Assembly (NCBI RefSeq): GCF_028681615.1
Contig: NZ_JAQUHV010000002.1
Coordinates: 186,001 to 250,000, forward strand
Reading direction: 5' to 3'
Source of the DNA: Sulfuricurvum sp.
Lineage (GTDB): Bacteria > Campylobacterota > Campylobacteria > Campylobacterales > Sulfurimonadaceae
DNA: 64,000 nucleotides
Shown here: one piece after another, positions 22,991 through 53,444 of the stretch
Layout of the letters: each line of letters begins with the position of its first letter
Position numbering within the stretch: the first letter of the stretch is position 1
Notes under the pieces: generated by a model
The model's database searches: none
What the model was told of the DNA's origin: nothing
Seen by the model: only the letters and a program-made list of their open reading frames with translations
Translations under genes and position numbers: made by a program

Positions 22991-23075
22991 ATACAAACTT
23001 CCTTTAACATTTAAAATATCAAAAATTTAGTGTGATAAATATAATAATTATAATTATTATAATTATTATATAAAG

Positions 23076-23096: not shown

Positions 23097-23097
23097 T

Positions 23098-24865: not shown

Positions 24866-26185
24866 GTGAAAGAGATGCTTGCAAAAGCTATTTTGATATT
24901 CTCTGACATTATAATGATTCTATTAGCGATTTTTGTTTCGTACGGATTACGAGATTGGTTCGATGGCACGTTTCTTCCAAAAATGACTGAACCTTTACGC
25001 TTTTACAGTACGATGTTGTTACTTCATACAATAACTTTAAGCATTTTCTTTTTAGAAGGGATTTATATGAAGCGGTACGATTTTTGGCAGGAATATAAAC
25101 GTGTCGTACGTGCTCTACTGATTGCTTGTGTTGTGATTTTTGCCGTTTTGGCGTTGAGCAAAGAAATACAAACTTATTCGCGGTTTATCTTGTTGTCCTC
25201 GTTTGCTTTGTTATTTATTCTTATGCCGTTCGAAAAATATATTTTAAAACGCTGGCTCTACCGGATGAAAATTTGGGGGCGCGAAGCGCTTGTGTTGGGT
25301 GATGATCCTTTTTTTGAGAAGGAAGTTTTTGGAAATCCGTATCTGGGATATATCCGTTCGGATAGTCATCCCGCTAAAACTCTTTTTATCGCTTCTAACC
25401 ATCAAAGTGCCGACGAGATAGAGATGATTTTAGACGATACTGTTAAACATAAGCAAGAGGTTATTTTTATCCCGCTGATCAAAAGTTACGATTTTTCCGA
25501 CTCATATATAATCCATCTTTTTAATGCCCGTACTAATTTGATTGTTTTGGAAAATAAACTCCTTAGCCGAGTAAATCAACTACTCAAAGGGTTCTCTGAT
25601 TATCTTTTGACACTGCTTCTTTTCCCATTTGCTTTTCTCTTGATAAGTGCCATCTCCGTATTGATCAAATATCAGGAACCGCATTCACCAATTTTCTTTC
25701 GGCAGCCCAGAATGGGTAAAGATGCCAAATCGTTTGTTTGCTATAAATTTCGTTCCATGCACCATGATGCCGATGCCCTTTTGGACGAGTACCTTGTGAC
25801 GCATCCTGAAGAGGTTGATAATTACGAGAAGTACCACAAATACGAAAACGATCCCCGTGTCACCCCTATTGGACGGTTTTTACGTAAAACCTCTTTGGAC
25901 GAATTACCGCAGATTCTCAATGTTATCCGAGGAGAGATGAGTCTCATTGGCCCCAGACCTTATATGTTTGAAGAGGAAGAAAAAATCGGTGAAAAGACAT
26001 CGATGATTTTGGCCGTAAAACCGGGGATCACAGGGATGTGGCAGGTTTTGGGACGAAGTGATATCGATTTTAAGAGCCGTGTGACTCTTGATGTCTGGTA
26101 TGTACGTAACTGGAGCCTGTGGACCGATTTCGTTATTTTAGTCAAAACGATTAAAGTGGTACTACAACGCGAAGGGGCGATTTAA
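24866..26185 (+). CDS. Polyprenyl-phosphate sugar-1-phosphate transferase (WbaP/WcaJ type)
   Basis: A 439-residue initiating enzyme of surface polysaccharide synthesis. Four N-terminal membrane helices (about 1-125) are followed by a Rossmann-like region, a further hydrophobic stretch near 255, and the catalytic PglC-like domain. That domain shows PIFFRQPRMGKDAKSF, CYKFRSMH, TSLDELPQILNVI and MSLIGPRPYM. It puts a sugar-1-phosphate (often galactose or glucose) on undecaprenyl phosphate at the cytoplasmic face. The start is a GTG preceded by GAGGAGG. It overlaps the next gene by 1 nt (TAATG) and probably primes the polymer made by the genes downstream. Confidence 0.92.
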   Translation: MKEMLAKAILIFSDIIMILLAIFVSYGLRDWFDGTFLPKMTEPLRFYSTMLLLHTITLSIFFLEGIYMKRYDFWQEYKRVVRALLIACVVIFAVLALSKEIQTYSRFILLSSFALLFILMPFEKYILKRWLYRMKIWGREALVLGDDPFFEKEVFGNPYLGYIRSDSHPAKTLFIASNHQSADEIEMILDDTVKHKQEVIFIPLIKSYDFSDSYIIHLFNARTNLIVLENKLLSRVNQLLKGFSDYLLTLLLFPFAFLLISAISVLIKYQEPHSPIFFRQPRMGKDAKSFVCYKFRSMHHDADALLDEYLVTHPEEVDNYEKYHKYENDPRVTPIGRFLRKTSLDELPQILNVIRGEMSLIGPRPYMFEEEEKIGEKTSMILAVKPGITGMWQVLGRSDIDFKSRVTLDVWYVRNWSLWTDFVILVKTIKVVLQREGAI

Positions 26186-27351
26186 TGCGCCTTATCGTGA
26201 ATTGTTCTCCCCTGCGTCCCCCGCTGACAGGGATAGGTCATTACACGAGAGAGGTGCTTCTGCGTCTGATCGAAGATCCTGAAATCGACGATATGGAAGG
26301 GTTTTATTTCCACCGTTGGCTTTCCCGTGAGCAGATACGCACACTACTCTATCCTATCGAGGCATCTTCCCAAACTTTTTCCCGTTCGTTCGCCCAAAGA
26401 GTTGCCGCTTTGCCGGGCGGACGCGAGTTGTACCGTTTAGCGATACGCTGGCTCCATCGAAACAATCTTGTGAAGCGTAAAGAGTGGCTTTACTGGGAGA
26501 CAAACTACACGCCCCTTCCCTTTGAAGGGAAAATTGTAACGACGGTGTACGACCTCTCCCATGTCCGTTTTCCGCAGTTTCACCCCAAGAGCAGGGTTTC
26601 TTTTTTTAACAACAAACTTCCAAAAGCGCTGTCAGAATCGGCGGCAATTTTGACGATATCCGATTTTTCAGCGCACGAAATCATGGAGTTTTACGGGATC
26701 GAAAAAACAAAAATCACGATTGTTCCCCCCGCCATTTCACCGGTATTTCACCCTCGAACGCGAGACGAGATCGAATCGTTTCGCCGCCGCTGTTTCCTCC
26801 CTCCCCGTTATCTGCTGAGCGTGGCGACTCTGGAACCGCGAAAAAACTTTAAAAACCTGTGTCTGGCATACGCATCGCTGGATGAGAGTATCCGTATGGC
26901 CTTTCCGCTGGTATTGGCAGGGGCTTCCGGGTGGCTGAGCGATGACCTTGAAGCGCTTATGTCACCGCTGGAGGAGCAGGGACACATTATTCGTCTGGGC
27001 TACGTCCCCGCAAGCGATTTGCCGGTGCTCTACGCGGCTGCAGACGCTTTATGCTATCTCTCTTTGTACGAAGGGTACGGGATGCCTATCGCCGAAGCGA
27101 TTGCTTCGAATATCCCGGTACTGACATCGGACTGTACCTCTATGCCCGAAGCGGGAGGAAACCGTGCGTGGTATGCGACTCCTACCTCGGTCGTTTCAAT
27201 TGCCGACATGCTCCAAAAGATGCTCTCTTCGGCAACGCCTCTGCATCCTCACTCATCGGCGCATCTGCCGCCGCCGCGCATCCACTCGTGGGAAAATGCA
27301 GCGGCGTCAATTATGGCATTGTTCCGATTCTGCTATAATTGCGATCAATAA
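26185..27351 (+). CDS. Glycosyltransferase family 4 (mannosyltransferase-like)
   Basis: A 388-residue GT-B enzyme. The acceptor loop is LRPPLTGIGHYTREVLLRL, LLSVATLEPRKNFKNL opens the donor domain, and the E-x7-E motif is in YEGYGMPIAEAIASNIPVLTSD near residue 296. This pattern is common in GDP-mannose or GDP-rhamnose users such as WbpY/WbpZ or MtfB, which agrees with gmd, rmd and manC in the region, but the donor is inferred. Coupled to the wbaP-like gene before it; 93 nt separate it from gmd. Confidence 0.85.
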   Translation: MRLIVNCSPLRPPLTGIGHYTREVLLRLIEDPEIDDMEGFYFHRWLSREQIRTLLYPIEASSQTFSRSFAQRVAALPGGRELYRLAIRWLHRNNLVKRKEWLYWETNYTPLPFEGKIVTTVYDLSHVRFPQFHPKSRVSFFNNKLPKALSESAAILTISDFSAHEIMEFYGIEKTKITIVPPAISPVFHPRTRDEIESFRRRCFLPPRYLLSVATLEPRKNFKNLCLAYASLDESIRMAFPLVLAGASGWLSDDLEALMSPLEEQGHIIRLGYVPASDLPVLYAAADALCYLSLYEGYGMPIAEAIASNIPVLTSDCTSMPEAGGNRAWYATPTSVVSIADMLQKMLSSATPLHPHSSAHLPPPRIHSWENAAASIMALFRFCYNCDQ

Positions 27352-27444: not shown

Positions 27445-28479
27445 ATGAAAAAAGCGATTGTTACAGGAATCACAGGTCAAGACGGTGCTTATTTGGCAGA
27501 ATTGTTGCTCGAAAAAGGGTATGATGTCTACGCAACGTACCGTCGCACCGCATCGGTCAACTTTTGGCGTATCGAAGAATTGGGGATCCAAAACCATCCG
27601 AACCTTCATCTAATCGAATACGATCTCACTGACCAATCCAATACGATCCGTATGGTGATGGACATTCATCCCGATGAAATCTATAATCTTGCCGCGCAGA
27701 GTTTTGTCGGCGTATCGTTTGATCAGCCGATTGCGACGGGGCATATCACCGGTTTGGGTGCGCTCCATTTGCTCGAAGCGATCCGTATTGTCAATCCTAA
27801 AATCCGCTACTATCAGGCTTCTACCTCCGAAATGTTCGGCAAGGTACAAGAGATTCCGCAGAGCGAGACCACCCCTTTTTATCCCCGGAGCCCGTACGGT
27901 GTAGCCAAGCTTTATGCCCACTGGATGACGATTAATTACCGTGAAAGTTACGGTATTTTCGGCTGTAGCGGTATTTTGTTCAACCATGAATCGCCGCTTC
28001 GCGGACGCGAATTCGTGACGCGTAAAATCACTGATTCGGTCGCGAAGATCGCTTTAGGCAAACTCGATTGTATGGAACTGGGCAATCTGGATGCCAAACG
28101 CGACTGGGGGTACGCAAAAGAGTACGTGGAGGGGATGTATTTGATGATGCAGCACCACACTCCCGATACGTTTGTATTGGCGACCAACCGTACCGAAACG
28201 GTACGCGATTTCGTTACGATGGCGTTTAAAGCTGCAGGCGTGAGTATCCGCTGGAGCGGCGAAGCCGAAAATGAGATCGGAATCGATGATGCGAGCGGAA
28301 AAACGCTGATCCGCATCAATCCAAAATTCTACCGTCCTGCAGAAGTCGAGTTGTTGATCGGAACTCCGGAAAAAGCCCGTAAAGAGCTTGGATGGGCACC
28401 GTCAACTTCACTTGAAGAACTGTGCGCCATGATGGTACATGCCGATATGGATCGCAACCGTGCCGGCTTCTCTTTTTGA
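27445..28479 (+). CDS. gmd: GDP-mannose 4,6-dehydratase
   Basis: A 344-residue short-chain dehydrogenase. The NADP motif is [19 protein letters not shown], the catalytic region is [11 protein letters not shown] with [12 protein letters not shown] (Tyr-x3-Lys), and [16 protein letters not shown] is diagnostic for GMD. It converts GDP-D-mannose, supplied via ManC at 52 kb, to GDP-4-keto-6-deoxymannose in the cytoplasm. The product can go to D-rhamnose, L-fucose or perosamine; the following rmd-like gene points to D-rhamnose. AAAGGA precedes the ATG, and the rmd gene starts inside its last 41 nt. Confidence 0.95.
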
Positions 28480-29347
28480 TTCCGTCGTCCTCCTCACCGG
28501 AGCCGACGGATTTACAGGGCGTTATCTGCACCGCGCACTCGAAGAGGCGGGCGCGCGTGTCGTAGTATTGGATGTCGATCTTCGTGACCGCGACGCGTTA
28601 AACGCCTTTTTTGAACCGCTTGCAATCGACTACGTCGTTCACCTCGCTGCCATCAGTTTTGTCCCACACGGATCGGATTTGGATGTCTATGCCGTCAACC
28701 TTTTCGGTACCCAAAATCTTTTGGAGGCATTGAGCCAAACCCAAAAAACACTCAAAAAAGTAATCCTTGCCAGTACCTCGAATGTCTACGGCAATGTGCT
28801 GGAGATGCCGATTACCGAAGCGCTTTGCCCCGCTCCGACAAACCATTACGCCATTAGTAAACTGGGGATGGAACATATCGGTGCGTTGTATCGCGACCGT
28901 TTCGGCGTCATTGTCACACGACCGTTCAACTACACTGGTGCCGGGCAGGCGGATCATTTTCTGATCCCCAAAATCGTGAGCCATTTCATCCGGAAAGAGC
29001 CGATTATCGAATTGGGAAATATCGACGTGTCACGCGATTTTTCAGATGTCCGCTGGATCGTCGAAGCATATGTGGGACTTTTGGCCTCCGAGTGCTACTC
29101 TGGGGTATTCAATCTCGCCTCCGGCACCCCTAGAACGATTCGTAGCGTTATTGCCTCGCTCGAATCGCTTAGCGGCCATGCGGTGCAGATTGTTCAAAAC
29201 CCAGCCTTTATCCGTTCGGGCGAAATTACGGTGCTGTGCGGCAGTTCCCAAAAGCTATATGATCTTATACCAATGCTGCCTCAGCCGATCCCGTTTGAGC
29301 AGACCCTTGAATGGATGTTGAATGCGTCGCAAAGCATGAAAGGGTGA
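28439..29347 (+). CDS. rmd: GDP-6-deoxy-D-mannose reductase
   Basis: A 302-residue NAD-dependent epimerase/dehydratase family member. [17 protein letters not shown] binds the cofactor, STSNVYG and [12 protein letters not shown] give the Ser/Tyr/Lys triad, and the middle is [10 protein letters not shown], as in RMD. It would reduce GDP-4-keto-6-deoxymannose to GDP-D-rhamnose. There is no sign of the epimerase features of fucose synthase or of an aminotransferase for perosamine. The start is uncertain: ATG 28439 or GTG 28460, neither with a strong Shine-Dalgarno, both within the end of gmd. Confidence 0.82.
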
Positions 29348-30138
29348 ATCGATTGTTTAAAAGTTTATGGCACTACCGCACCTTTGTCATCTCCTCGGTT
29401 GTAGCGCAGTTTCATGCCCGTTTCGTCCAAAATAAACTGGGGGTGCTGTGGATGATCGCCAACCCTTTGGCGCAAGTCACGGTGTATGCCCTCATCCTTT
29501 CATCGATATTGGCCGCCAAACTTCCCGGTATCAACAATACGTATGCGTACGCGATCTATTTGACGGCAGGGATGCTGGCATGGACCCTTTTTACTGAGAT
29601 ACTCTCGCGCAGTGTCACGCTGTTTGTGGATAATGCCAATCTGCTCAAAAAATTGGCTTTCCCAAAGCTCACCCTCCCTTTAATTGTTACGGGGACGGCA
29701 CTTATCAATGCATTATTGCTCCTTGTCGCCGCAATGGGCGTTTTCTTTTTGCTGGGGCACCATGTCGGATGGGTCGTTTTATGGCTTCCCCTTTTATTTG
29801 TGTTGACGATTCTGCTGGCGCTATCTTTGGGAACGTTGCTGGGGATTTTCAACGTCTTTATTCGTGATATCGGTCAATTGGTTCCTATTGTGATTCAGTT
29901 TTGGTTTTGGCTTACCCCTGTGGTCTATGTCCCCACGATCATTCCGGTACGTTACCGTGACTATCTTGCGTACAATCCTGTGACCCCCCTGGTACAGGGA
30001 TTTCAAAACGTTTTGGTTTTTAACCGTCCTCCCGACGTTGAAGGATTGGCATTGATTGCTCTTGTCTCACTGCTCATCGGAGCGGCCGCCATCGCGCTTT
30101 ATCGCAAAGCATCTGCAGAAATGGTTGACCTTTTATGA
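29344..30138 (+). CDS. wzm: Polysaccharide ABC transporter permease
   Basis: An ABC-2 type permease of 264 residues with about six membrane helices; KNKLG-like entry VQNKLGVLWMIANPLAQV, middle GTLLGIFNVFIRDIGQLV and FWFWLTPVVY are Wzm/TagG signatures. With Wzt it exports the finished lipid-linked O-polysaccharide through the inner membrane. I favour the GTG at 29344, which overlaps the rmd stop (GTGA); an ATG at 29311 would add 11 residues. The last codon overlaps the wzt start (ATGA). Confidence 0.9.
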   Translation: MNRLFKSLWHYRTFVISSVVAQFHARFVQNKLGVLWMIANPLAQVTVYALILSSILAAKLPGINNTYAYAIYLTAGMLAWTLFTEILSRSVTLFVDNANLLKKLAFPKLTLPLIVTGTALINALLLLVAAMGVFFLLGHHVGWVVLWLPLLFVLTILLALSLGTLLGIFNVFIRDIGQLVPIVIQFWFWLTPVVYVPTIIPVRYRDYLAYNPVTPLVQGFQNVLVFNRPPDVEGLALIALVSLLIGAAAIALYRKASAEMVDLL

Positions 30139-31367
30139 TCTTGTTAGAACTTTCAAATATTACTAAAGCGTACCGGGTCTATACCTCCGAATTTCATCGC
30201 TTTTTGTCGTGGTTCGTCCCTTCGGTTTCCCCGGTCGAAGAGACACGGGTACTTGACAACCTGAACCTCACAATCAAGCAGGGAGAATCCATCGGGATCG
30301 TCGGTCAAAACGGTGCAGGTAAAAGCACCCTTCTGAAATTGATTACAGGGATTATCAGACCTACGTCCGGCACGATTGGCATACATGGGAAGATTGCAGC
30401 GATTTTAGAATTGGGAATGGGATTCAACGCTGATTTTACAGGGCGCCAAAATGCTTACAACGCACTTGGAATAATGGGATTTACACATGATCAGATTACT
30501 GCTATCATCCCTGAAGTTGAAGCGTTCGCCGAGATTGGTCACTATTTTGACTTACCTTTACGCATATACAGTAGCGGGATGCAGATGCGTGTTGCTTTTT
30601 CGGTTGCTACGGCGTACCGACCTGATATTTTGATTGTGGATGAAGCCCTTTCCGTAGGAGATGCCTATTTTCAACATAAAAGTTTCGCACGGATCAAAGA
30701 ATTCAAAGAGTTGGGCACAACCCTTTTATTGGTTTCCCATGATGAAACAGCGATACAAAATATATGTGACCGTGCTCTTTTATTGGAAAAAGGGACGATA
30801 GTCCATGACGGAAATCCTGAAGATATTTTAAATTATTATAAAGCATCGATTGCTGAAAAAGAGAAAAATACGATCAAAATGACACAGCTTGACAATGGCA
30901 GAATTCAAATAGTTTCCGGAAGCGGTGAAGCTCGAATCCGATCGTTAACATTGACAAATGAAAAAGGGGTCGAAACAGATACCTTTTATGTCGGTCGAAA
31001 ATTCCAAATGTCCGTGATGGTTGATGTACATGAATATTTGGACTCTTTAGTTTTTGGGTTTTCGATCAAAGACAGGCTGGGACAGATTATGTACGGTACG
31101 AATACATGGTATACCAAGCAAAACCTGTGTGAAGTTGCGTCTGGAACGCTCCTGGAATACACCGTATCATTTGATCTTTGTTTGGGTGTAGGCAATTACT
31201 CTATCCAATTGGCGCTTCACGATCAAGAGACGCATCTAAATCGGAATTATGAGTGGATAGATATGGCAGGAATGTTTACGGTTTTGAACGAAGAAGAAAA
31301 CTTCTTTATAGGGCTGTCATGGCTTAACCCCGATATAAGGATGAAGACAATTGAAACATTTGATTAA
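30135..31367 (+). CDS. wzt: Polysaccharide ABC transporter ATPase with O-antigen-binding domain
   Basis: A 410-residue ATPase. Walker A GQNGAGKST is at 57-65, signature YSSGMQMRVAFS near 154, Walker B ILIVDEALSVGD near 176. A C-terminal beta-sandwich (about 250-410, with SVMVDVHEYLDSLVFGFSIKD and SIQLALHDQ) matches the Wzt-C carbohydrate module. In known systems that module recognises the capped end of its own O-polysaccharide and so controls export. Its presence suggests the chain carries a specific terminal group; no methyltransferase or kinase of the WbdD type is seen nearby. Confidence 0.92.
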   Translation: MILLELSNITKAYRVYTSEFHRFLSWFVPSVSPVEETRVLDNLNLTIKQGESIGIVGQNGAGKSTLLKLITGIIRPTSGTIGIHGKIAAILELGMGFNADFTGRQNAYNALGIMGFTHDQITAIIPEVEAFAEIGHYFDLPLRIYSSGMQMRVAFSVATAYRPDILIVDEALSVGDAYFQHKSFARIKEFKELGTTLLLVSHDETAIQNICDRALLLEKGTIVHDGNPEDILNYYKASIAEKEKNTIKMTQLDNGRIQIVSGSGEARIRSLTLTNEKGVETDTFYVGRKFQMSVMVDVHEYLDSLVFGFSIKDRLGQIMYGTNTWYTKQNLCEVASGTLLEYTVSFDLCLGVGNYSIQLALHDQETHLNRNYEWIDMAGMFTVLNEEENFFIGLSWLNPDIRMKTIETFD

Positions 31368-31620: not shown

Positions 31621-34101
31621 ATGCGAATAGTTATTGATTTGCAGGCATGTCAGTCCAGCAGCAAACTGGGAGGGATCGGAAGATATTCGATGAATCTGGC
31701 TGAAGCGATGGTTCGCCAATGCGGGGGGCATGAGCTTGTTTTTGTATTAAACGATCTTTTTCCAGAAACAATACCGGAACTCTATGAATCACTTGGGAAA
31801 ATAATACCGAAAAAACAGATACGCGTGTTCAGTGTCCCCGGCCCGCTAAACGAATCAAATCCGGAAAACCGGTTCAGAATACGTTCTGCAGAAATTTTGC
31901 GCGAACGTTTCATGGCAGATCTCAATCCAGATATCGTTCATGTGAGCAGTTTGATAGAAGGATTGGGAGATAATGTTGTAACCTCTGTAGGCGAAGTGTT
32001 TCCAGGAGAAAAAACAGGTGTCACTCTTTACGATTTGATTCCTCTGGTTGAGAAAGATACTTATCTACAGGATATCGTTACCAAGGACCATTATTACAAT
32101 AAACTTGAGTATCTCAAAAAAGCGGGTTCTTTACTGGCTATTTCGGAATTTTCCAAACAAGAAGCGATAGAATTATTGAACATTGATCCGGAAATTATTA
32201 CAACCATTTCTTCAGCCGTGGATAAAAAGTTTCGACCCTTGAGCATCCCCCGTATAGAAGCCGAAAAAGTTCTTAAAAAACACGGAATCCATCGAAAATT
32301 TTTGCTTTTTACCGGCAGTTTTGATCAAAGAAAAAATCATGAAAGACTTATTAGGGCATTTGCTTGGCTCCCTGAAAAAATCCGTAAAGAGTTTCAACTG
32401 CTTATAATCGGAAATGGGTGGGATTCTATATATGCTCATTTGCGCAGCGTAGCAGCTCGTGCAGGCCTCTCTCACGATGATTTGATCTTTGCCGGGCATG
32501 TATCGGATCATGAACTGTTGACCATATACAATACGGCACATCTTTTTGTTTTTCCTTCATTGTCTGAAGGCTTTGGTCTTCCGGTACTGGAAGCCATGTC
32601 CTGTGGAATTCCGACTATAGGTTCAAACACGACAAGTATTCCGGAGGTAATCGGGCTGGATGAAGCCCTTTTTGATCCTTATAGTATAGAATCAATCGGA
32701 AGCAAGATACTCCATGCATTAACTGACGAATCTTTTAGAACCCATTTGAAAAATCATGCGTTGGAATATGCGCAAAATTTTTCGTGGGATGCATCGGCAA
32801 AAAAAGCTATTGAAGCGTTTGAAAGACAGTACGAACAGACAAAAAACTGCTATTCGCTTTCATTCGATCAAACATTGGACAAACTTTCAAAAATAGCCAA
32901 GAACTATCCGATAAAACAAAACGATCTGGTAAAGGTGGCTGCATCTATCGAAGCAAATGAAGCGGCTTCGTCGGTGACAGACTCTTCCCAAAAGATAGGC
33001 TGGATATCAACATGGAATACCCGCTGCGGCATAGCTATGTATTCCCGATATCTTGCAGGGAAACACATCTCTGAATACACCGTCTTTGCCCCGTTTGAGC
33101 AGACTTTGCTCTCACAGGACGAACCGAATGTCGTTCGATGCTGGCAACCGGATAACGATGACTTAAAAAGGCTGGTTAAAGCGATTCAAGAGAATGATAT
33201 TGCGACAGTAGTAATACAATTTAATTATGGCTTTTTTCAATTTCCGGCATTGCAAACCTTTATCCAAGAGATGGTTGCACAAGGCAGATCCGTTGTTATT
33301 ACGCTTCATGCGACAACAGACAATACGCAAAAGCAACTGATTGGGATTCGGCAGGCGCTTCGTCTTTGCGATAAGGTGATTGTACACGCAGAAAATGATC
33401 TTGAAAATCTTGGAAAAATAGGCGTAACTGAAAATGTCGTTCTTTTCCCTCAAGGTATTGTTGATACGCTTCCTTCAAACGTTGATACGGATGATATAAC
33501 GGCCCCTTTTGTGATTGCAAGTTACGGTTTTTTTCTTCCCCATAAAGGCTTTTTGGAACTGATTGATGCTTTCAAACGCTTGATTGACAGAGGCGTTCAA
33601 ATTCATTTGCTCATGGTAAACGCTGCATATCCTGCAGAGGTCTCTGAATCCTTGATAGCACAGGCACAGAAGAAAATTGCCGCCTACAAAATCGAAAAAA
33701 ATGTGACGTTGCTGAGTGAATTTTTACCGGATGAAATGAGTTTGGGATATTTGGCAAAAGCCGATTTGATTATTTATCCTTATCAGGAGACGGGAGAATC
33801 ATCCAGTGCTGCAGTTCGTATGGGGTTGGCTTCACTTCGTCCTGTTGCGGTGACCCCTTTGAAAATTTTTGATGATGTACGGGACATTGTGATTACCCTT
33901 CCATCGACGACGGTAGAAGGTATTGCCGATGGAATTGAGGCATTTATCCGACAAAAGGGAAAAGGGGATTCGGTTGATTTTGAGCGCTCATCCCGTGCCG
34001 TAAAATGGAGGGAAGAGCGCTTATATTCCCGCCTATCGGAACGTTTCTTTGATCTCCTTTCCCAATCCGGTCAGAAAAGATCGAAAGGAGGAAGTGCGTG
34101 A
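31621..34101 (+). CDS. Double-headed family 4 glycosyltransferase (826 residues)
   Basis: Two GT4 modules in one chain. Module 1 (about 1-400) begins IDLQACQSSSKLGGIGRYSMNL and has a canonical E-x7-E segment, LSEGFGLPVLEAMSCGIPTIG, near residue 314. Module 2 (about 458-815) begins IGWISTWNTRCGIAMYSRYL and its corresponding segment is ETGESSSAAVRMGLAS near 720, an altered form used by a different donor subgroup. Two catalytic modules on one protein suit a polymer with two alternating linkages, as in rhamnan and mannan synthesis. It acts on the cytoplasmic face before Wzm/Wzt export. Its stop overlaps the next start. Confidence 0.88.
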   Translation: MRIVIDLQACQSSSKLGGIGRYSMNLAEAMVRQCGGHELVFVLNDLFPETIPELYESLGKIIPKKQIRVFSVPGPLNESNPENRFRIRSAEILRERFMADLNPDIVHVSSLIEGLGDNVVTSVGEVFPGEKTGVTLYDLIPLVEKDTYLQDIVTKDHYYNKLEYLKKAGSLLAISEFSKQEAIELLNIDPEIITTISSAVDKKFRPLSIPRIEAEKVLKKHGIHRKFLLFTGSFDQRKNHERLIRAFAWLPEKIRKEFQLLIIGNGWDSIYAHLRSVAARAGLSHDDLIFAGHVSDHELLTIYNTAHLFVFPSLSEGFGLPVLEAMSCGIPTIGSNTTSIPEVIGLDEALFDPYSIESIGSKILHALTDESFRTHLKNHALEYAQNFSWDASAKKAIEAFERQYEQTKNCYSLSFDQTLDKLSKIAKNYPIKQNDLVKVAASIEANEAASSVTDSSQKIGWISTWNTRCGIAMYSRYLAGKHISEYTVFAPFEQTLLSQDEPNVVRCWQPDNDDLKRLVKAIQENDIATVVIQFNYGFFQFPALQTFIQEMVAQGRSVVITLHATTDNTQKQLIGIRQALRLCDKVIVHAENDLENLGKIGVTENVVLFPQGIVDTLPSNVDTDDITAPFVIASYGFFLPHKGFLELIDAFKRLIDRGVQIHLLMVNAAYPAEVSESLIAQAQKKIAAYKIEKNVTLLSEFLPDEMSLGYLAKADLIIYPYQETGESSSAAVRMGLASLRPVAVTPLKIFDDVRDIVITLPSTTVEGIADGIEAFIRQKGKGDSVDFERSSRAVKWREERLYSRLSERFFDLLSQSGQKRSKGGSA

Positions 34102-34403
34102 TGAAGACAGGCAGACTGAAACAACGGGTTGGCTCTTTTTTAAATACTCTGATACATCTTAACAATCTGAAATTTCGTGTATCGCTTGCGGAAGAGGAAC
34201 TTTACCGCCTTAGAGATGAAAACACTGTTTTGAAAGATCGTATTGAAATTTTGGAACAACGCATGGAGTCTTTGGAACCTATGGTCGAAAAAATGGTCAC
34301 ACGGCAGATCTATTATCAGACGCTCTCGCTTCAACAGCGCCTCGACGAAGCGGGACTCGATATACAAATCCTTGCACACTCTTCCGACGATACCGTGGTA
34401 TGA
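34101..34403 (+). CDS. Small coiled-coil protein between two polymerising glycosyltransferases
   Basis: A 100-residue protein of which residues about 25-66 form an almost ideal parallel coiled coil. Heptad a positions are L34, N41, I48, M55, V62 and d positions are L37, L44, L51, L58, M65; a single Asn at an a position is the mark of parallel dimers. A basic N-terminus (KTGRLKQRVGSF) precedes it. AAAGGAGG precedes the ATG at 34101, which overlaps the previous stop; GTG at 34098 is an alternative. Its own stop overlaps the 34400 gene (ATGA). A scaffold or chain-length role is inferred from position only. Confidence 0.65.
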   Translation: MKTGRLKQRVGSFLNTLIHLNNLKFRVSLAEEELYRLRDENTVLKDRIEILEQRMESLEPMVEKMVTRQIYYQTLSLQQRLDEAGLDIQILAHSSDDTVV

Positions 34404-36640
34404 CTTTATCCGTAGCAATACATCAATTTACCCCATCTGTTGCCGTAGGAGACGGTGTGAGCGGAGGGGTTTTATTGACTCAGACACTTTTATCCGAGCT
34501 GGGGTTCATTTCTCGTATTTATGCCCGAAAAATCGATCCGATCCTTTCAAACCGCGTTGATTCGATAGAAGACTTTGATCCTGCACCTGACGATATACTC
34601 CTCTATCATTACTCGATAGGACATCGTGACCACGATGCGCTGATGGTGCTGGATGTCCGTAAAATCATCGTTTATCATAACATTACCCCTGAGTTTTTTT
34701 TCGCAGATACCCCCCGTTTGTATGCACTGTGCAGATTGGGTCGCATGCAGCTATCTGTATCATCGTCATATTTTTGCGGTGCTTATGCCGATTCGGAGTA
34801 CAATGCCCGTGAATTGAAACGCTTGGGCTACCCAGATGTGCAGGTACTGCCGTTACTGGTCGATACATCAGAACCTATGATTCAGCCTGATGTCTCGACG
34901 CTTCCGCCATTGGGAGAGAAATATGTTATCCTCTTCGTCGGCAGAATCGTGACAAACAAAGCGCAGCATCAGCTTGTTGATATCCTCTATGCGCTAAAGA
35001 ACCGTTCCGTTGTTGATGTCGTTCTTGTTCTTGCCGGAGGGTTCAGTGACAGCACGTATGCTGAGTTTCTCCGCAAGCATATTTCTTTGTTGGAATTGGA
35101 TGGCGATGTCATGATTACGGGGAAAATTTCGGACGAAGCCCTCGGTGCCCTCTATACGCGTGCAGATCTCTACCTATCTATGAGTCTGCATGAGGGATTT
35201 GGTATTCCCATGATCGAAGCGATGCGATACGATATTCCCGTATTGGGGTACGATATTGCCGCTGTAGGAGAAAATCTCCCGCTCCAGGCCCGACTATCAT
35301 TTAGAACCCCCACACAAGTCGCCGAAAAAATTATCAAGCTGATGGAAACACCTGTTCTCCGCACCGTTTTGCTCCTGCAGCAGCGTGAAATCCTCCGCCG
35401 TTACGAGCATGCGGAACTACTGAACCGGCTCGCTTCATTTTTGGCTGATATGGGGGTTATTTCACCGAATCCACCTTCTGGGTTCATGGTACCGCGAGAA
35501 GATCGCATCCGCATTGACGGCCCGTGCGACAGTACCTACAGTCTTGCATTGGTGAACCGCGAAGTGGGTCGCGCATTGCTTCAGCAGGGAATGGAAGTTT
35601 CGTTGTTCGCGACCGAGGGACCGGGAAACTATGTGCCGAACCGTGATTTTTTAGCGAATGATCCGGAGGTACTTTCCGCATTGTCAGATATCCCTATACA
35701 TGCTCGTAGTGTTATCCGAAACCTCTATCCGCCGCGTGTTTCTTCGATGGGAGGGGTATTCAAACTATTAGGTCCATACGGCTGGGAAGAATCGGTATTT
35801 CCGCCAGAACACGTTCAAAATTTTAACCGCCGTCTCAGCGGCATCGCCTGTATGTCGACGTATGTGGCAAATGTGCTGCGCGATAATGGAGTTAACATAC
35901 CGCTGTGCATTTCGGGAATCGGTGCTGATCATATTCTGCGACATCTTCCTGAACCTCTTGGATTTGACCTTCCGGAAGGGATCAAACTGCTGCACATCTC
36001 TTCGTGCTTTCCGCGCAAAGGAGTCGATGTCTTGATTGCGGCACTGGAGGAGGTCGGAGTGCCGTTAACACTGGTTGTCAAAACCTTTCCCAACCCTCAC
36101 AATACCCTTCGCGCCGATTTGCTCCGTTGGGGGTGGGAAAACACCGCGCATGACCTCTATATTCGAGCAGACAAAAGGGTGATGATCATCGAAAATGACC
36201 TCTCGATGGCGCAGGTACGGACCCTTTACGGCACGTGCGATTGCCTTGTAGCACCGAGCCGCGGTGAAGGGTTTGGCCTGCCGATGGCCGAGGCGATGTT
36301 ACTGAATCTCCCTGTAATTACGACGGGCTATGGGGGACAGAGCGACTTTTGTACTGCAGATACCGCATGGACGGTAGGGTATACGTTGGCTCCGGCCGAT
36401 ACCCATATGGGCTTGGCTGGCTCGCTTTGGGCAGATCCGGACAAAGATGACCTTTCTCGTCAGATTATGGCGGTCTTACAGCTCTCCACAGACGAAAAAC
36501 GCCGAAAAACCGACGCTGCACGCACCCTTATAGAAACCCGATACACATGGGCGGCCGTTGCACAGAAAATGGTGGACTTTATCAATCTTTTGGAACATTC
36601 CGCATCTTCTCCGAGCTGTTTAAGCGAAACGATGCAATAG
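34400..36640 (+). CDS. Double-headed family 4 glycosyltransferase (746 residues)
   Basis: Two GT4 modules. Module 1 (about 1-365) has LFVGRIVTNKAQHQLVDIL and LHEGFGIPMIEAMRYDIPVLGYD near residue 263. Module 2 (about 375-735) starts RIDGPCDSTYSLALVNREVGRAL, has HISSCFPRKGVDVLIAAL and the motif RGEGFGLPMAEAMLLNLPVITTG near 620. Both E-x7-E sites are intact, unlike the altered second site of the 826-residue protein. Together the two proteins give four transferase modules, enough for a repeating D-rhamnan or mixed polymer. It is the last gene of the polysaccharide operon. Confidence 0.87.
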   Translation: MTLSVAIHQFTPSVAVGDGVSGGVLLTQTLLSELGFISRIYARKIDPILSNRVDSIEDFDPAPDDILLYHYSIGHRDHDALMVLDVRKIIVYHNITPEFFFADTPRLYALCRLGRMQLSVSSSYFCGAYADSEYNARELKRLGYPDVQVLPLLVDTSEPMIQPDVSTLPPLGEKYVILFVGRIVTNKAQHQLVDILYALKNRSVVDVVLVLAGGFSDSTYAEFLRKHISLLELDGDVMITGKISDEALGALYTRADLYLSMSLHEGFGIPMIEAMRYDIPVLGYDIAAVGENLPLQARLSFRTPTQVAEKIIKLMETPVLRTVLLLQQREILRRYEHAELLNRLASFLADMGVISPNPPSGFMVPREDRIRIDGPCDSTYSLALVNREVGRALLQQGMEVSLFATEGPGNYVPNRDFLANDPEVLSALSDIPIHARSVIRNLYPPRVSSMGGVFKLLGPYGWEESVFPPEHVQNFNRRLSGIACMSTYVANVLRDNGVNIPLCISGIGADHILRHLPEPLGFDLPEGIKLLHISSCFPRKGVDVLIAALEEVGVPLTLVVKTFPNPHNTLRADLLRWGWENTAHDLYIRADKRVMIIENDLSMAQVRTLYGTCDCLVAPSRGEGFGLPMAEAMLLNLPVITTGYGGQSDFCTADTAWTVGYTLAPADTHMGLAGSLWADPDKDDLSRQIMAVLQLSTDEKRRKTDAARTLIETRYTWAAVAQKMVDFINLLEHSASSPSCLSETMQ

Positions 36641-37043: not shown

Positions 37044-40034
37044 ATGGCAGTAACAAATCAACAGGTTGCAGAACTTTACGTTGCAACATTTAACCGTGCA
37101 CCCGATGCAGACGGTTTGGATTATTGGGTTAACCTTTCAGGTTTAACCATTGAGCAAATCGCCCAAAGCTTTTTCGATCAGCCGGAAACACAGGCATTGT
37201 ATCCAGCAGGGAATACAGATGCTGAATTTGTAACTTCTATCTATTCAAATCTTTTCAACCGTACTCCTGATGCAGCTGGGCTTGCATATTGGGTCAATGA
37301 GCTTGCGAACGGAAACATGACTCGTTCAGTAATGATCGAAGCGATGAAAGACGGCGCACTTGGTGCAGATGCGATTCTTGTTGCCAACAAAGCAGAAGTA
37401 GGTCTTTACTATGCGAATGCGGGTCTTACAGGTACAGATTATTCATTGGCGTCAGTTACAGCATACCATTCATCAGTTGTTGCTGCAGAAACTGCGATTG
37501 ACAATATCGTTGCAAACGGCGGAGACATCGCTGCGACAGGACAAACGTTTGTATTGACTACAGGTCAAGACAATGTTGTCGGAACAACATTAAACGATAC
37601 GATTACAGGTATTGTAGACGGAACGCATGACACATTGACACTTGGTGACAGTATCAACGGCGGAAGCGGTGCGGATACATTGAAATTGATTACGGATGCG
37701 TCAACTGTCAATATGGGCTTGGCAACAATTACGAGCGTAGAAAAAGCAATCGTAAACGATTATACGCATAGCCTTACAACATTGAACATCGATAACAACG
37801 CATTTGCAGCATTGACAGTAGACGGTATTGACAATTCAACATACATCAATGACGTTGTTGGATCAACGGCTGTTACATTGACCAATCTTGGGACTTCAGC
37901 AAGCGCATACGTGTATTTCAGCGACAGCAGTGCTACGGCATTGTCAGGAACTGTTGACGGTGCAGACAGCGCATATGCAGAATTCAACTATGCGAATCTT
38001 ACGGCTACAACGCTTGACATTACTCTTGATGTTAAAAACGTAATGAATTCAGATGTTTATGAATATGCTGATAACAACGGAAACAACACGGCTGTGACAG
38101 CGATTAATACAACGATTAATCTTACAGACGCAACCGATTCATACGTGTATGCGGAAACGTATAATGCTTCTGAAGGAATCGAACGTACCGCGACAGTTAC
38201 GATTGCAAACGTTGACAATTCATACGTTGAAATGGATGATTACCACAGTACATTGTCTAACAACACGATTAACCTTTCAATGAGCAATTCAGACGGCGCA
38301 GGTTTCGAATTCTATCCGTACGATGATACCAATAGCGTACAATCAAGCGGTTCGACCGATACGTTGAATATCACATTGGACAACGTTACCAGTGTTAACA
38401 ATGATTCATTTATCGATGTATATGACATGGAAAATATCAACGTTGTGGTAAACGGCGCTTCGGTATTGGATTATATCGATGCGTATTCTTACGGAGACGG
38501 TACGTATCCGGCAGTACAAACGTATACCATTACGGCAAACGCTGACTTGACAGTGAATACGATCGATGTGACAGATGGAGGTGTTGCAAACTTCACCATT
38601 ACCGGTGCCGGAAATGTAACGTTTGACACCAACGGCGATAACGATGGTTTGACAGTGGACGCAGCGGCAATGACAGGTGACTTGACATTGGGCGCATACT
38701 CAGACAATGGTGCATCTCTTGATACAATCATCGTTGATGTTCAATCTGGAAGCGGTAACGATACCATTACATTGGATACGGTACAGGCAAATGTTTCTAC
38801 AGGTGCAGGTAATGACCGCGTAGACATTACAGGATTGGATTTCGGTGATGCATTGGCAGGTACACTTAACGGTGGAGAAGGTCGTGACACGATCGTAATT
38901 GCGAACGGTGCATTATTGTACGCTGCAAGTGCTGCGAACATCAGTAACTTCGAAGTACTTGATTTCACTGCGGGTATAGGTACATATGATATGTCTGTTG
39001 AACCATCATTGAAAGATGTGAGTGCAAACGGTTATATCGCTGGCGCTGTAACAATCGACAACGCTGCGGCGGATACCAAACTTTCTCTTGATTCATTTGT
39101 AGACACAGATGCTATTACTATGGCTCTTGCAGATGCAACAGGAACAACCGATACTCTTGGTATGACGGTTTCTGCTACAGATACCAATACAGACACAACG
39201 GCGGATAATGAATCAAATGCTGTTATCATTGCGACAGGGTATGAAACAATCAACCTTACATCAAACGCGACGACAGCATCTGTAGAATCTTCTTTGGGTG
39301 CGAACGATGCATTGACATCAGCAGATTATAACAACACAGTTGATTATGATGCGGCAAATATGACAAAACTCGTTATCGACGGAAACGCTCAAGCGACGGT
39401 AACGTTCACAGATGCTACAGCATTGACTTTCGTAGATGCAAGCGCAAATACGGCGGGTGTTAACGTAGACGCGTCAACCGGTTCTATTACGGGTGGTGTA
39501 ACATTCAAAGGTTCTGCAGCAGCGGATACATATACATCAACTGCTAATGGTGACCTTATCCAAACGAACGCAGGTGCGGACACTGTTACTCTTGGTCTAG
39601 GTGATGACACAATCCGTTTTGCAAGCAAAACAGATTCACAAATGACATTGACTGATACAACTACTCCGGCAGATGGCGTAGCAGATACGATGACTGGATT
39701 TGACGTTATCACTGGCTTTAATACATCTGGTACTGACTTGATCGAGTTGTCTTCACTTCTTAACTTGGCGACAGGTGATGCACGTGCGGACATCATCCAA
39801 AAAGGTGCGATCGGCGGTACTACTGCAGCAGCAATGCAAACGTTCATTGGCACAGGAGCAGATTTCTTCTCTACTGGTGTTGTTGATCGTGCTGTTGCAT
39901 TTGCTACAGACGGTACTAACGGATATGTATTCGTAGACGTTAACCATGACGGTAGCTATTCAGCTGCTAATGATATGGTGATCGAGCTTGCTGGTACAAC
40001 TTCATTTGCTGTAACTGACATTACTTTCGGTTGA
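37044..40034 (+). CDS. S-layer-like DUF4214 T1SS substrate, copy 1
   Basis: A 996-residue exoprotein with no Sec signal. Two DUF4214 units lie at about 1-125 (AELYVATFNRAPDADGLDYWV, then LFNRTPDAAGLAYWVNEL). A long Thr/Asp/Asn/Ala-rich beta-strand region follows, with RTX-like pieces (TTLNDTITG near 180, GSGNDTITLD near 570, NAGADTVTLGLGDDTIRF near 843). The end is a C-terminal segment closing TTSFAVTDITFG, the usual place for a T1SS signal. The protein is acidic, poor in Lys, and I see no Cys, as in S-layer proteins. Own leader and strong terminator. An S-layer or major surface protein is the best reading; no name can be given. Confidence 0.82.
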   Translation: MAVTNQQVAELYVATFNRAPDADGLDYWVNLSGLTIEQIAQSFFDQPETQALYPAGNTDAEFVTSIYSNLFNRTPDAAGLAYWVNELANGNMTRSVMIEAMKDGALGADAILVANKAEVGLYYANAGLTGTDYSLASVTAYHSSVVAAETAIDNIVANGGDIAATGQTFVLTTGQDNVVGTTLNDTITGIVDGTHDTLTLGDSINGGSGADTLKLITDASTVNMGLATITSVEKAIVNDYTHSLTTLNIDNNAFAALTVDGIDNSTYINDVVGSTAVTLTNLGTSASAYVYFSDSSATALSGTVDGADSAYAEFNYANLTATTLDITLDVKNVMNSDVYEYADNNGNNTAVTAINTTINLTDATDSYVYAETYNASEGIERTATVTIANVDNSYVEMDDYHSTLSNNTINLSMSNSDGAGFEFYPYDDTNSVQSSGSTDTLNITLDNVTSVNNDSFIDVYDMENINVVVNGASVLDYIDAYSYGDGTYPAVQTYTITANADLTVNTIDVTDGGVANFTITGAGNVTFDTNGDNDGLTVDAAAMTGDLTLGAYSDNGASLDTIIVDVQSGSGNDTITLDTVQANVSTGAGNDRVDITGLDFGDALAGTLNGGEGRDTIVIANGALLYAASAANISNFEVLDFTAGIGTYDMSVEPSLKDVSANGYIAGAVTIDNAAADTKLSLDSFVDTDAITMALADATGTTDTLGMTVSATDTNTDTTADNESNAVIIATGYETINLTSNATTASVESSLGANDALTSADYNNTVDYDAANMTKLVIDGNAQATVTFTDATALTFVDASANTAGVNVDASTGSITGGVTFKGSAAADTYTSTANGDLIQTNAGADTVTLGLGDDTIRFASKTDSQMTLTDTTTPADGVADTMTGFDVITGFNTSGTDLIELSSLLNLATGDARADIIQKGAIGGTTAAAMQTFIGTGADFFSTGVVDRAVAFATDGTNGYVFVDVNHDGSYSAANDMVIELAGTTSFAVTDITFG

Positions 40035-40073
40035 TCATCCTAAGCGATCTGCTTTCAGTAGAACGTTTTTTCA

Positions 40074-40111
40074 AAGCCTCTTCCCTTGATAGGGCGGAGG
40101 CTTTTTTTTTT
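40074..40111 (+). terminator. Strong terminator of S-layer-like gene copy 1
   Basis: Stem AAGCCTC/GAGGCTT with an upper stem CCCT/AGGG and TGAT loop, followed by a run of ten T, 40 nt after the stop codon. Confidence 0.92.
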
Positions 40112-40139
40112 ACCCCTATCAGAGTACAAAGAGGAACGA

Positions 40140-40334
40140 ATGGAAAAAAAGATTTTAAAATTCAACGACAAAGAATACAAAATATCTGATCTTTCAGAAG
40201 AGGCAAAAGCCCAATTGACAAACCTCCGAGTTTGCGATGCTGAAATTTCCCGATTAAAAGCGCAATTGGCAATTACGGAAACGGCTCGTAATACTTATAC
40301 TCAGGTTTTATCGAATCTGCTTCCGAAAAAATAA
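40140..40334 (+). CDS. Small protein linked to T1SS cargo (DUF6447-like)
   Basis: A 64-residue protein: a short N-terminal beta hairpin-like part (KKILKFNDKEYKISDLS) and then one helix or coiled coil (SEEAKAQLTNLRVCDAEISRLKAQLAITETARNTY). As I recall, it resembles the short DUF6447 proteins found beside exported repeat proteins; function unknown. AGAGGAA precedes the ATG. It lies just after the end of repeat unit A, beyond a strong terminator, so it depends on read-through or an unseen promoter. There is no copy after the second S-layer gene. Confidence 0.68.
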   Translation: MEKKILKFNDKEYKISDLSEEAKAQLTNLRVCDAEISRLKAQLAITETARNTYTQVLSNLLPKK

Positions 40335-40336
40335 CG

Positions 40337-40356
40337 TGACTCCCGGTTTGGGGTCA
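40337..40356 (+). terminator. Possible weak terminator after the small protein gene
   Basis: A 7-bp stem TGACTCC/GGGGTCA (one G-T pair) with a 6-nt loop starts 3 nt after the stop; the T content after it is modest. The remaining sequence to 40520 shows nothing convincing. Confidence 0.4.
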
Positions 40357-40621
40357 TATTCATCTGTTTTACAAATCTCCTCTCTTCTCTCAAAACACTT
40401 CCCCTCAGCGCATACGATATCAAATAAATCATCGAACAATGGCCACACAGAAGTGAATTTTCACCTTTTCATCGATGCGGGCTTCAATATCTTCAGAAAT
40501 CACCAACTTTTATACACTAATAAGGATATATTAAAATAGTATAGAGGATAATACTTATATCATCGAGTGTAGTTAGCTCGGTGCGCGCACAAAACTAAAA
40601 CTAAAACACAAAAGGATTCAC

Positions 40622-43612: not shown

Positions 43613-43651
43613 TCATCCTAAGCGATCTGCTTTCAGTAGAACGTTTTTTCA

Positions 43652-50725: not shown

Positions 50726-52029
50726 AATTAGCCTACAGTGTAATCTCCATAATGGCATGCAGTATCCTCGGTTGGGGTGCAGAACCTCTGATGTTGAGTA
50801 ATGCATATGATTTGGCACTTAAAAATGAACCGCACCTACGCTCGTTAATGCTTAAAACTGAGGCGACAAAAGAGACGGTGGCACAAAGCAGATCCCGCTT
50901 GTATCCGCAGCTTCAGGGGACACTTTCGTGGGGTAGTTATGGATATGATGCGCAGTATCTTAAAAAACCGGTAAATGAAAACTATAAAAGTTATTCAGTA
51001 TCGGCATCGCAAGTACTCTATCATCCGGAATTGTGGCGTGGAATCGACGAATCCAAAGCACGGCAGCAAGCCGCAAATTTTCAACTTCTATCTGAAGCGC
51101 AGAAATTGGGAATAGATGTTGCAAAAGCGTATTTTAATCTCATTAAAACTGCGGGTAATGTTGAACTTCTTACATCCAAAAGGGATTATTATGAAACCAA
51201 ATTCAAAGAACAGGAAGAGAAACTCAAATACGGACTAACCAACCGTATCGATTTACTTGATGCAAAATCACACAGTGACAAGGCTTTGTCCGAATTACTT
51301 GCAGAACAAAAACGTGCGAAAGTTGCGGTACTTAGACTTGAACATTTGATCAAAGAACCTGTTAAAGATCTGCCAAAATTTGATTTTACAAGGGTAGATT
51401 TTGACAAATTATTTCGTAACCGTGCAGAATGGGAAGCAAAACTGGAAAATAATCCGAATTTAAAAGCTTCGGTTGCGGCAGAAGAAATTGCGACACATCA
51501 AGCAGCTATCCGAAAGTATGATCATTATCCGAAAGTCGATTTAAACGTTGTTCGCAAAGAGACCTATACCCAAGATACTGTTGCGCATAAATATGACAAT
51601 CAGGCAATTGTTCAAATGTCCATACCGATTTTTCAAGGTGGATATGCTCAATCACGTGTGCGTGAGGGCGAGATGTTATTGGAATCCGCACGTAGCGATG
51701 TTGAATATAATCAGTTGGATACACGGCAGAAATTTGAAGAACTGTGGTCAGAAAGTCAGCTGAATGTAGAAACGCTTCAATCGCTCAAAGAGTCTGAAAA
51801 ATCAGCAGAACTTTATTTAAAATCTGTTGAGCAGGGGAACGCAGCGGGATTGAAAAGTTTGCTGGATGTTCTCGATGCCAAAGCTAAATTGTATGAAGTT
51901 AAACGCGATTCGATCGATGCGGGATATGAATTAGTCAACAATTATTTAAGTTTGTTGGATGTTACCGGAGAACTAAGCAGTGAAAATATTGCACTGTTAG
52001 AAAATATGACATGTCAGGGAGAACAATAA
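50722..52029 (+). CDS. TolC-like outer-membrane channel of the T1SS
   Basis: A 435-residue outer-membrane efflux family protein with signal peptide (1 to about 19, ending ILGWGAEP). The two repeated halves each have long helices: ANFQLLSEAQKLGIDVAKAYFNL with KYGLTNRIDLLDAKSHSD in the first, and EQGNAAGLKSLLDVLDAKAKLYEVKRD in the second. It completes the tripartite export path from cytoplasm to outside. It begins with ATGA overlap to the glycosyltransferase and its stop overlaps the manC start. Confidence 0.9.
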   Translation: MKLAYSVISIMACSILGWGAEPLMLSNAYDLALKNEPHLRSLMLKTEATKETVAQSRSRLYPQLQGTLSWGSYGYDAQYLKKPVNENYKSYSVSASQVLYHPELWRGIDESKARQQAANFQLLSEAQKLGIDVAKAYFNLIKTAGNVELLTSKRDYYETKFKEQEEKLKYGLTNRIDLLDAKSHSDKALSELLAEQKRAKVAVLRLEHLIKEPVKDLPKFDFTRVDFDKLFRNRAEWEAKLENNPNLKASVAAEEIATHQAAIRKYDHYPKVDLNVVRKETYTQDTVAHKYDNQAIVQMSIPIFQGGYAQSRVREGEMLLESARSDVEYNQLDTRQKFEELWSESQLNVETLQSLKESEKSAELYLKSVEQGNAAGLKSLLDVLDAKAKLYEVKRDSIDAGYELVNNYLSLLDVTGELSSENIALLENMTCQGEQ

Positions 52030-53444
52030 TGATTCCAGTCGTTGCCGTTGTATTATCAGGAGGGTCGGGTACACGTTTGTGGCCACTTTCACGAAAAGCA
52101 TATCCGAAGCAATTTTTGAACCTTTATGGTGAAGGGACAATGTTCCAGCAGACACTGGAACGTTTAAAAGGGATACAAGGGTTGAGTGAAATCATTGTGG
52201 TTGCAAATGAAGAACATCGCTTTGTCGTTGCTGAACAGATGCGCCAGTGTAAAATTAAAGGAAGAATTTTACTTGAGCCTTTTGGAAAAAATACCGCTCC
52301 TGCTATTGTTTTGGCTGCACTGGACGTATTAAAACGTCATTCAGATGCCCATCTTTTGGTTCTATCTTCAGATCATGCTATTGAATCGGTACCTATATTT
52401 ACGAAAGCTGTGAATTCGGCAGTAACTTTGAGCAATGATGATTTTTTGGTGACATTCGGTGTCTTTCCCACATCTCCTGAAACAGGATATGGTTATATTC
52501 GCATATCAGATCCGCTTGGTGCAAAAATAGGGTACCGAGTGGGTGCCTTTATCGAAAAACCGAATCAGGATATGGCTGAAAAGATGCTTGCACAAGGCAG
52601 CCATTATTGGAATAGCGGTATGTTTATGTTTAAAGCGACCCTTATATTGGATGAGTTGCGCCAATTTCGACTGGATATATACGAAACGTGTCTTCAAGTT
52701 GTATCGTCAGAAGAAAATGATCTTGATTTTATACGATTCGATTCAGAACTGTTTGAATCTATCCCTTCCGAATCAATAGATTACGCTGTAATGGAACATT
52801 CCAAAAAAGGTGCAATGGTTCCATATGAAGGGATGTGGAGCGATGTAGGGTCGTGGGAAGCATTGTGGAACATCTCTGGACCTGATGAATCAGGAAATGT
52901 AATGATTGGGAATGTATTGGCTCTAAAGACAACGAATTCTTACATTCGCAGTTCATCAAAACGTGTTGCTGTTACGGGTGTAGACGGACTCATTATTGTT
53001 GCTACTGATGATGCGGTGCTAGTTGCTGATAAATCACATTCACAGGACGTCAAAGATCTTGTTTCGGCGCTAAAATCATGTGATATTGATATTGTCGAGA
53101 AACATCAGGAAGTTCATCGTCCTTGGGGCTTTTATACGACATTAGATAAAGCAGATCGTTTTCAAGTTAAACGTATTGTTGTGAAACCCGGAGAAAAGCT
53201 CTCGTTTCAAATGCATTATCATCGTGCAGAACACTGGGTAATCGTTCAAGGGACAGCAAATGTCACTTTAGATGATAAAACCTACATATTGGGTGAAAAT
53301 CAGTCAATACATATACCTCTTGGAATGAAACATTCTCTTCAGAATCCTGGAAAGATTCCCTTGGAAGTGATTGAAGTCCAGTCTGGAACTTATTTGGAAG
53401 AAGATGATATCGTTCGTTTTAAAGACGAGTACGGAAGAGCTTGA
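52029..53444 (+). CDS. manC: Mannose-1-phosphate guanylyltransferase / mannose-6-phosphate isomerase
   Basis: A bifunctional enzyme of 471 residues. The nucleotidyltransferase domain (about 1-340) has LSGGSGTRLWPLSRKAYPKQ and FVEKP-like FIEKPNQDMAEKML. The C-terminal cupin phosphomannose isomerase domain (about 345-471) has RPWGFYTTLDKADRFQVKRI, KPGEKLSFQMHYHRAEHWVIV and IPLGMKHSLQNPG. It provides GDP-mannose, the precursor used by Gmd and Rmd encoded at 27-29 kb. I chose ATG 52029, which overlaps the tolC-like stop and has GGGAGAA upstream. Phosphomannomutase is not in the window. Confidence 0.94.
   Translation: MIPVVAVVLSGGSGTRLWPLSRKAYPKQFLNLYGEGTMFQQTLERLKGIQGLSEIIVVANEEHRFVVAEQMRQCKIKGRILLEPFGKNTAPAIVLAALDVLKRHSDAHLLVLSSDHAIESVPIFTKAVNSAVTLSNDDFLVTFGVFPTSPETGYGYIRISDPLGAKIGYRVGAFIEKPNQDMAEKMLAQGSHYWNSGMFMFKATLILDELRQFRLDIYETCLQVVSSEENDLDFIRFDSELFESIPSESIDYAVMEHSKKGAMVPYEGMWSDVGSWEALWNISGPDESGNVMIGNVLALKTTNSYIRSSSKRVAVTGVDGLIIVATDDAVLVADKSHSQDVKDLVSALKSCDIDIVEKHQEVHRPWGFYTTLDKADRFQVKRIVVKPGEKLSFQMHYHRAEHWVIVQGTANVTLDDKTYILGENQSIHIPLGMKHSLQNPGKIPLEVIEVQSGTYLEEDDIVRFKDEYGRA

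Follow-up and report, generated by a model that had tools for sequence, protein, structure and literature searches.

What does a free-standing coiled-coil protein do when it is encoded between two double-headed glycosyltransferases? The question is raised by a polysaccharide locus in a 64,000-nucleotide stretch of Sulfuricurvum sp. (positions 186,001 to 250,000 of contig NZ_JAQUHV010000002.1), which is here called the window. A coil protein of 100 residues is encoded there between GT4 glycosyltransferases of 826 and 746 residues (Table 1), and an earlier note on this DNA had proposed it to be a scaffold or tether, possibly setting chain length, in analogy with WbdD. Its sequence marks it as the free-standing coil module of a terminator-like methyltransferase protein, and as an analogy the link to WbdD is real. 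The best explanation, which we hold to be moderately probable, is that this terminator-derived coil, together with a second small protein corresponding to the tail of such terminator-like proteins and without the catalytic head, acts as a membrane-side oligomeric scaffold for both double GT4 enzymes.

The identification is carried by the recurrence of the coil as a module of larger proteins. In L013 and L077 methyltransferase proteins begin with it, in L015 and L048 the upstream glycosyltransferase ends with it, and in L017 it lies in the middle of a glycosyltransferase-coil-methyltransferase chain (L- and G-numbers denote the loci and genomes compared). An N-terminal helix, the coil and a C-terminal motif are common to the window protein and to the Campylobacterota proteins of the L013, L077 and L017 type, but these have a methyltransferase domain, which the window protein is without. 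Jackknife profiles built without the window protein gave it 39.3 bits when made from seven relatives and 30.7 bits when made from the three methyltransferase-fused relatives only. None of the shuffled controls reached these scores, whether shuffled in full, within heptad classes or in the flanks only (1000 of each kind; 999 full shuffles were scored for the second profile), the highest maxima being 14.9, 17.2 and 23.0 bits, respectively. Since no shuffle scored as high even when the coil was kept and the flanks were shuffled, the homology reaches beyond the heptad repeat. A chance coiled coil or a spurious open reading frame was rejected on the synteny and shuffle tests.

Fusion of the coil both to the upstream glycosyltransferase and to a capping-type methyltransferase lends support, at the level of sequence, to the proposed scaffold or tether. 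Contact with the upstream glycosyltransferase is the best-supported step, because the coil is fused to that enzyme elsewhere. The C-terminal fusions of L015 and L048, which carry the coil without a head, would also fit a plain dimerising membrane anchor for one glycosyltransferase, uninvolved in termination and chain length. Against this, several loci have the module in front of a methyltransferase, and we regard a plain anchor as highly improbable.

The coil gene shares one base with the 826-residue gene at its start and four with the 746-residue gene at its end, and both neighbours have two Glycos_transf_1 stretches, in agreement with the earlier description of double-headed GT4 genes overlapping the coil on both sides. 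Its product has a basic amphipathic N-terminus (residues 1-26, net charge +6), heptads at about 27-72 and a conserved C-terminal motif, QTLSLQQRLD...D..I. The heptad count places L34, N41, I48, M55 and V62 at a positions and L37, L44, L51, L58 and M65 at d positions, and bears out what had been noticed before, some 4.5 clean heptads in which Asn occupies only one a position. In a crude a/d score 33 of 5000 shuffles reached the value of the coil, and the AlphaFold2 model (eight sequences) predicts a single helix over residues 2-97 with a mean pLDDT of 91.5. Polysaccharide co-polymerases of the Wzz type have a periplasmic coil between two transmembrane helices; this type was rejected, as no transmembrane stretch was found in the coil protein (maximum KD19 0.56, versus 2.73 for the ABC-2 control). 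Neither the coil nor the tail protein matched a Pfam or NCBIfam family above the curated cut-off, so that many loci probably encode proteins of this kind without an annotation. Matches to centrosomin-like and other Pfam coils were below cut-off, ascribed to composition and rejected.

Relatives were found by using the downstream 746-residue GT4 as anchor, which gave 53 loci in the genome collection. The gene directly 5′ of the anchor encodes a small free-standing protein (98-239 residues) in 18 loci, another glycosyltransferase in 13, a methyltransferase-bearing protein in seven and a coil-ended glycosyltransferase in four; six have other genes, one an anchor-glycosyltransferase fusion, and four a contig edge or nothing. 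Only those of L010, L011, L012 and L014 among the 18 are homologues of the window coil, while four Nostocales proteins and those of L022 and L054 were placed there by size and position alone. Every free-standing coil measured (the window and these four loci) overlaps its neighbours by 1-11 nucleotides, and an IHQFTP-type GT4 lies directly 3′ of the coil module in the window, L013 and L017 (the neighbouring glycosyltransferase of L077 was left out of this comparison).

A coil search of 200 genomes of the family (E up to 0.01) gave eight matches, six of them syntenic relatives, the window's included, and two unrelated coils; the five relatives besides the window coil all lie directly 5′ of the same GT4. 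The coil is present as a single copy in its own genome, where the sole further match (E 0.32) is unrelated, and no true relative was found among the sampled members of the genus. L002, L007 and L008 were dropped as unrelated coiled coils once their reading frames had been read, and G238/L099 was dropped as well. In a tree of the downstream glycosyltransferase (19 rows), the window, on a long branch (1.1) and with unusual composition, belongs to a Campylobacterota clade that has full support and contains free, glycosyltransferase-fused and methyltransferase-fused coils; four label changes are required, and four open forks leave room for more than one order of events. A separate ruler or tether, it had been said, would be a new arrangement. 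New it is, as far as searches of open-licence papers for coiled-coil terminators and small coiled-coil proteins in such loci can tell: none of the titles and abstract openings listed reports a free-standing coil or tail, a negative that carries little weight. The window is not its only instance, as other loci also have it.

A second small gene, overlooked in the earlier note, lies between Wzt and the 826-residue glycosyltransferase. To judge by its sequence, the 86-residue product is homologous to the tail with which methyltransferase-coil-tail proteins end: a profile built from five fused tails gave it 38.0 bits, and the best of 997 scored shuffles 11.2 bits. L078 has a methyltransferase-coil-tail protein in the same place, directly between Wzt and the first glycosyltransferase. 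L012 and L014 have a free-standing tail at that place too, and in L017 and, twice, in L048 such tails precede glycosyltransferases. The L017 tail reached 14.0 bits with the fused-only profile (four of 1000 shuffles as high) and 43.9 bits with the profile of all others, versus 20.8 for the best shuffle. The tail profile matched six of 397 genomes of the phylum, and only the window's tail is free-standing in that sample. The first half of the window's tail, which is basic, is modelled as three helices, and a further helix lies at the C-terminal end (pLDDT 70). The window thus holds pieces of two head-bearing protein types, the coil of one and the tail of the other, and neither head.

With both heads gone and a tail gene that starts at TTG and has a lower GC content (0.337 versus 0.42 for both neighbours), coil and tail could be decaying and functionless remnants of a locus that lost its terminator heads. 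This is improbable, given that intact and overlapped reading frames are kept in divergent loci for the coil (window, L010, L011, L014) and for the tail (window, L012, L014, L017, L048), that the end motifs are conserved at 20-31% identity and that a like arrangement is found in Bacillota.

The missing head was searched for in the genome with one coil-methyltransferase query, a nine-row methyltransferase profile, Methyltransf_23 and FkbM. No terminator of the relatives' methyltransferase family was found in the cluster or the genome, consistent with the previous statement that no WbdD-like terminator is seen, and the coil protein, being one helix only, has no catalytic terminating head. The best genome match to the nine-row profile is a double-domain methyltransferase, taken from its sequence to be of arsenite type; it scores 26.8 bits, compared with 247-336 bits for the true members that four of six other genomes contain. 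Methyltransf_23 gave 14 matches, and the two strongest, whose context was read, lie among housekeeping genes; of the other 12 only C10 was followed, and it was rejected as not of this family. The FkbM family search gave no match in the genome. True members are present in G241, G159, G063 and G144 and absent from G111 and G172 (the latter 84% complete), so the window is not alone in having a coil but no head anywhere in its genome. Heads may also be encoded apart, as in L048, where the coil is on the glycosyltransferase and a separate methyltransferase has a membrane helix of its own but no long coil.

In WbdD (E. coli O9a, K. pneumoniae O3), according to excerpts of PMC3482155 and PMC5082667, the coil keeps the terminating enzyme at a distance from the polymerase, and the non-catalytic C-terminal region brings the polymerase to the membrane. 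The window shares the coil and an ABC-transporter locus with a cap-binding Wzt, and the amphipathic N-terminus of its coil and the separate tail are candidates for a membrane- or polymerase-recruiting end. It differs in having no catalytic head, in encoding coil and tail on separate genes and in its coil, which is shorter than the roughly 200 Å quoted there. WbdD was not retrieved by the relatives' methyltransferase profile among 33 PDB matches (E up to 1e-5). A similar mixing of coil, terminator and glycosyltransferase modules is described in excerpts of PMC11231755 for K. pneumoniae O4 ORF7, O7 ORF6 and O12 WbbB, together with a Klebsiella coil protein termed a membrane-associated scaffold; the systems discussed in those excerpts have the terminating enzyme at the far end of the coil, whereas the window coil has none. 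Since a WbdD-like ruler depends on such an enzyme and none is attached or was found, the case for a ruler is not made here.

Landmark-to-landmark coil lengths in ten homologues are 52, 52, 52, 56, 56, 56, 59, 59, 59 and 66 residues, nine obtained by script and that of L097 by hand from the printed sequence; L012 (genome copy L009) and L026, both broken by a run of N, are left out. Whole-heptad variation among homologues had been suggested as informative, and the lengths step by 0, 4, 7 and 14, as those of any coiled coil would. Because the coiled-coil register must hold, such steps are expected with or without a ruler. In related terminator-like proteins (L069:1968-3470, L078:1486-2802, L103:1-2196 and L018:8599-9999) the coils consist of tandem repeats, almost exact and with units of 7, 11 or more residues, which suggests fast length evolution.

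The exporter has kept the domain that reads a cap. A Wzt_C match of 116.4 bits agrees with the carbohydrate-binding domain ascribed to Wzt before, and its nearest solved relative is the domain of Aquifex aeolicus Wzt (54 bits), which according to an excerpt of PMC9445017 binds a 3-O-methyl mannose/rhamnose cap, with a Trp stacking on the methyl cap. A D-rhamnose-containing polymer, the product type likely for the window, is a further resemblance to that system (PMC9445017). The window differs from A. aeolicus in a cap pocket that is only partly kept and in a genome where no methyltransferase of the terminator-like family was found. When the alignment is read by hand and the numbering shifted by one, A348, H350, H355 and W362 are seen to be conserved, and I299F, L300S and T346Q to be changed. 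The cap-stacking Trp is kept in all eight aligned Wzt domains, and the window domain is closest to that of L078 (41%, versus 28-32% for the other six). With the domain retained and the head missing, the cap is added by another enzyme, or else the domain recognises something other than a cap, and this raises the question of the role of a cap-reading exporter when the usual capping enzyme is absent.

One answer would be a ruler with its head in trans, in which another capping methyltransferase or an acyl- or glycosyltransferase docks on the free coil, which spaces it from the polymerase and sets chain length. The retained Wzt domain, its closeness to that of L078, where a methyltransferase-coil-tail protein is encoded beside Wzt, and the invariant Trp are in its favour, as are the stepped coil lengths and the precedents for split heads, namely the separate methyltransferase of L048 and a free module beside a methyltransferase gene in L038. 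Nevertheless, the cluster holds no candidate head, the two strongest general methyltransferases belong to housekeeping surroundings and three pocket residues are changed, and on balance we consider a head in trans unlikely.

A like arrangement was found in Bacillota. A profile of six free-standing Bacillota proteins (L023, L024, L027, L038, L041, L049) matched the N-terminal regions of methyltransferases in L043 (82.4 bits), L042 (55.1), L020 (44.5) and L028 (43.7), the best shuffles reaching 2.1-12.7 bits, and free-standing proteins in L031 (27.3) and L051 (21.0). L053 and L057 were barely above their shuffles, L054 was matched by one of 500 and L022 failed (L056 and L058 were left out). These results imply that the module preceding methyltransferases is free-standing in at least two sequence families, both 5′ of this glycosyltransferase; the window and Bacillota families are alike in arrangement, and homology between them is not shown. 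The next gene upstream of the free module encodes a methyltransferase in L038, an FkbM methyltransferase in L049 and a hexapeptide acyltransferase, so labelled by Pfam, in L023; the last is a possible alternative capping head. The acyltransferases preceding the free module at L023:8413-9591 and L024:8347-9525 start with a helix that resembles the coil family's membrane helix. One may tentatively speculate that a three-part dissected terminator, with the coil as ruler or scaffold, the tail as recruiter and either interchangeable heads in trans or a cap-free control of length, has arisen repeatedly across phyla. Loci with separate coil and tail, and with the head missing or apart, would allow ruler, recruiter and capping to be tested separately.

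In the scaffold that we favour, the membrane-helix-plus-coiled-coil module of a terminator-like methyltransferase protein, encoded on its own, would oligomerise in parallel at the membrane and gather the two double GT4 enzymes, perhaps with Wzm/Wzt also in the complex. The tail would serve as a second anchor beside the coil, the complex would make an ABC-transporter-exported polysaccharide, probably a D-rhamnose polymer, and the coil may affect its chain length. Several observations weigh against this explanation. Pro60, at an f position, breaks the coil, the amphipathic moment is moderate (0.49), and the window coil lacks (I/L)P..G, a stretch found in the membrane helix of all seven aligned relatives. 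Identity of the window coil to its relatives is only 20-31%, the Bacillota profile gives it 4.4 bits (18 of 500 shuffles as high), and no free-standing tail was found in L010, L011, L013 or L015. A chain-terminating role of the fused methyltransferases is, moreover, something we infer.

The gene content of the cluster (Table 1) suggests a D-rhamnose polymer, exported by the ABC transporter, as the likely product, with a GDP-L-fucose route as the alternative.

Table 1. Features of the locus, with positions in the window.
Feature	Position	Strand	Basis or remark
Initiating sugar transferase (Bac_transf)	24866..26185	+	
Single GT4 glycosyltransferase	26185..27351	+	
GDP-mannose 4,6-dehydratase	27445..28479	+	
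NAD-dependent epimerase/dehydratase-type protein	28439..29347	+	Probably the GDP-D-rhamnose-forming reductase
Wzm, ABC-2 membrane subunit	29311..30138	+	Pfam
Wzt, ABC ATPase with Wzt_C cap-binding domain	30135..31367	+	Pfam; nearest solved domain Aquifex aeolicus Wzt
Free-standing tail protein, 86 residues	31351..31611	+	Homology to fused tails; TTG start; overlaps Wzt stop by 17 nucleotides
Double GT4 glycosyltransferase, 826 residues	31621..34101	+	Two Glycos_transf_1 stretches
Free-standing coil protein, 100 residues	34101..34403	+	Reading frame, profile tests, AlphaFold2 model, heptad count
Double GT4 glycosyltransferase, 746 residues (anchor)	34400..36640	+	Two Glycos_transf_1 stretches
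Mannose-1-phosphate guanylyltransferase/mannose-6-phosphate isomerase	52011..53444	+	

Downstream of the anchor, two genes for DUF4214, RTX-like proteins of 996 residues (37044-40034 and 40622-43612) do not differ in a single base, nor do 101 and 76 bases of their flanks, and constitute a very recent or actively maintained duplication. Their products are probably S-layer or surface proteins. Proteins of this kind adjoin such clusters in the window (22070-24609 and 37044-45860) and at L014:11710-14342 and L015:4042-5853, as if the polymer anchored them. A DUF4214 domain is also found near the N-terminus of the coil-methyltransferase proteins of L068, L021 and L016, and DUF4214 may bind polysaccharide. 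Further upstream, at 12562-21822, two MBOAT acyltransferases, each beside a protein without a Pfam match, are accompanied by a GtrA/GT2 pair and an O-antigen-ligase-like protein, a possible region for polysaccharide acylation and ligation.
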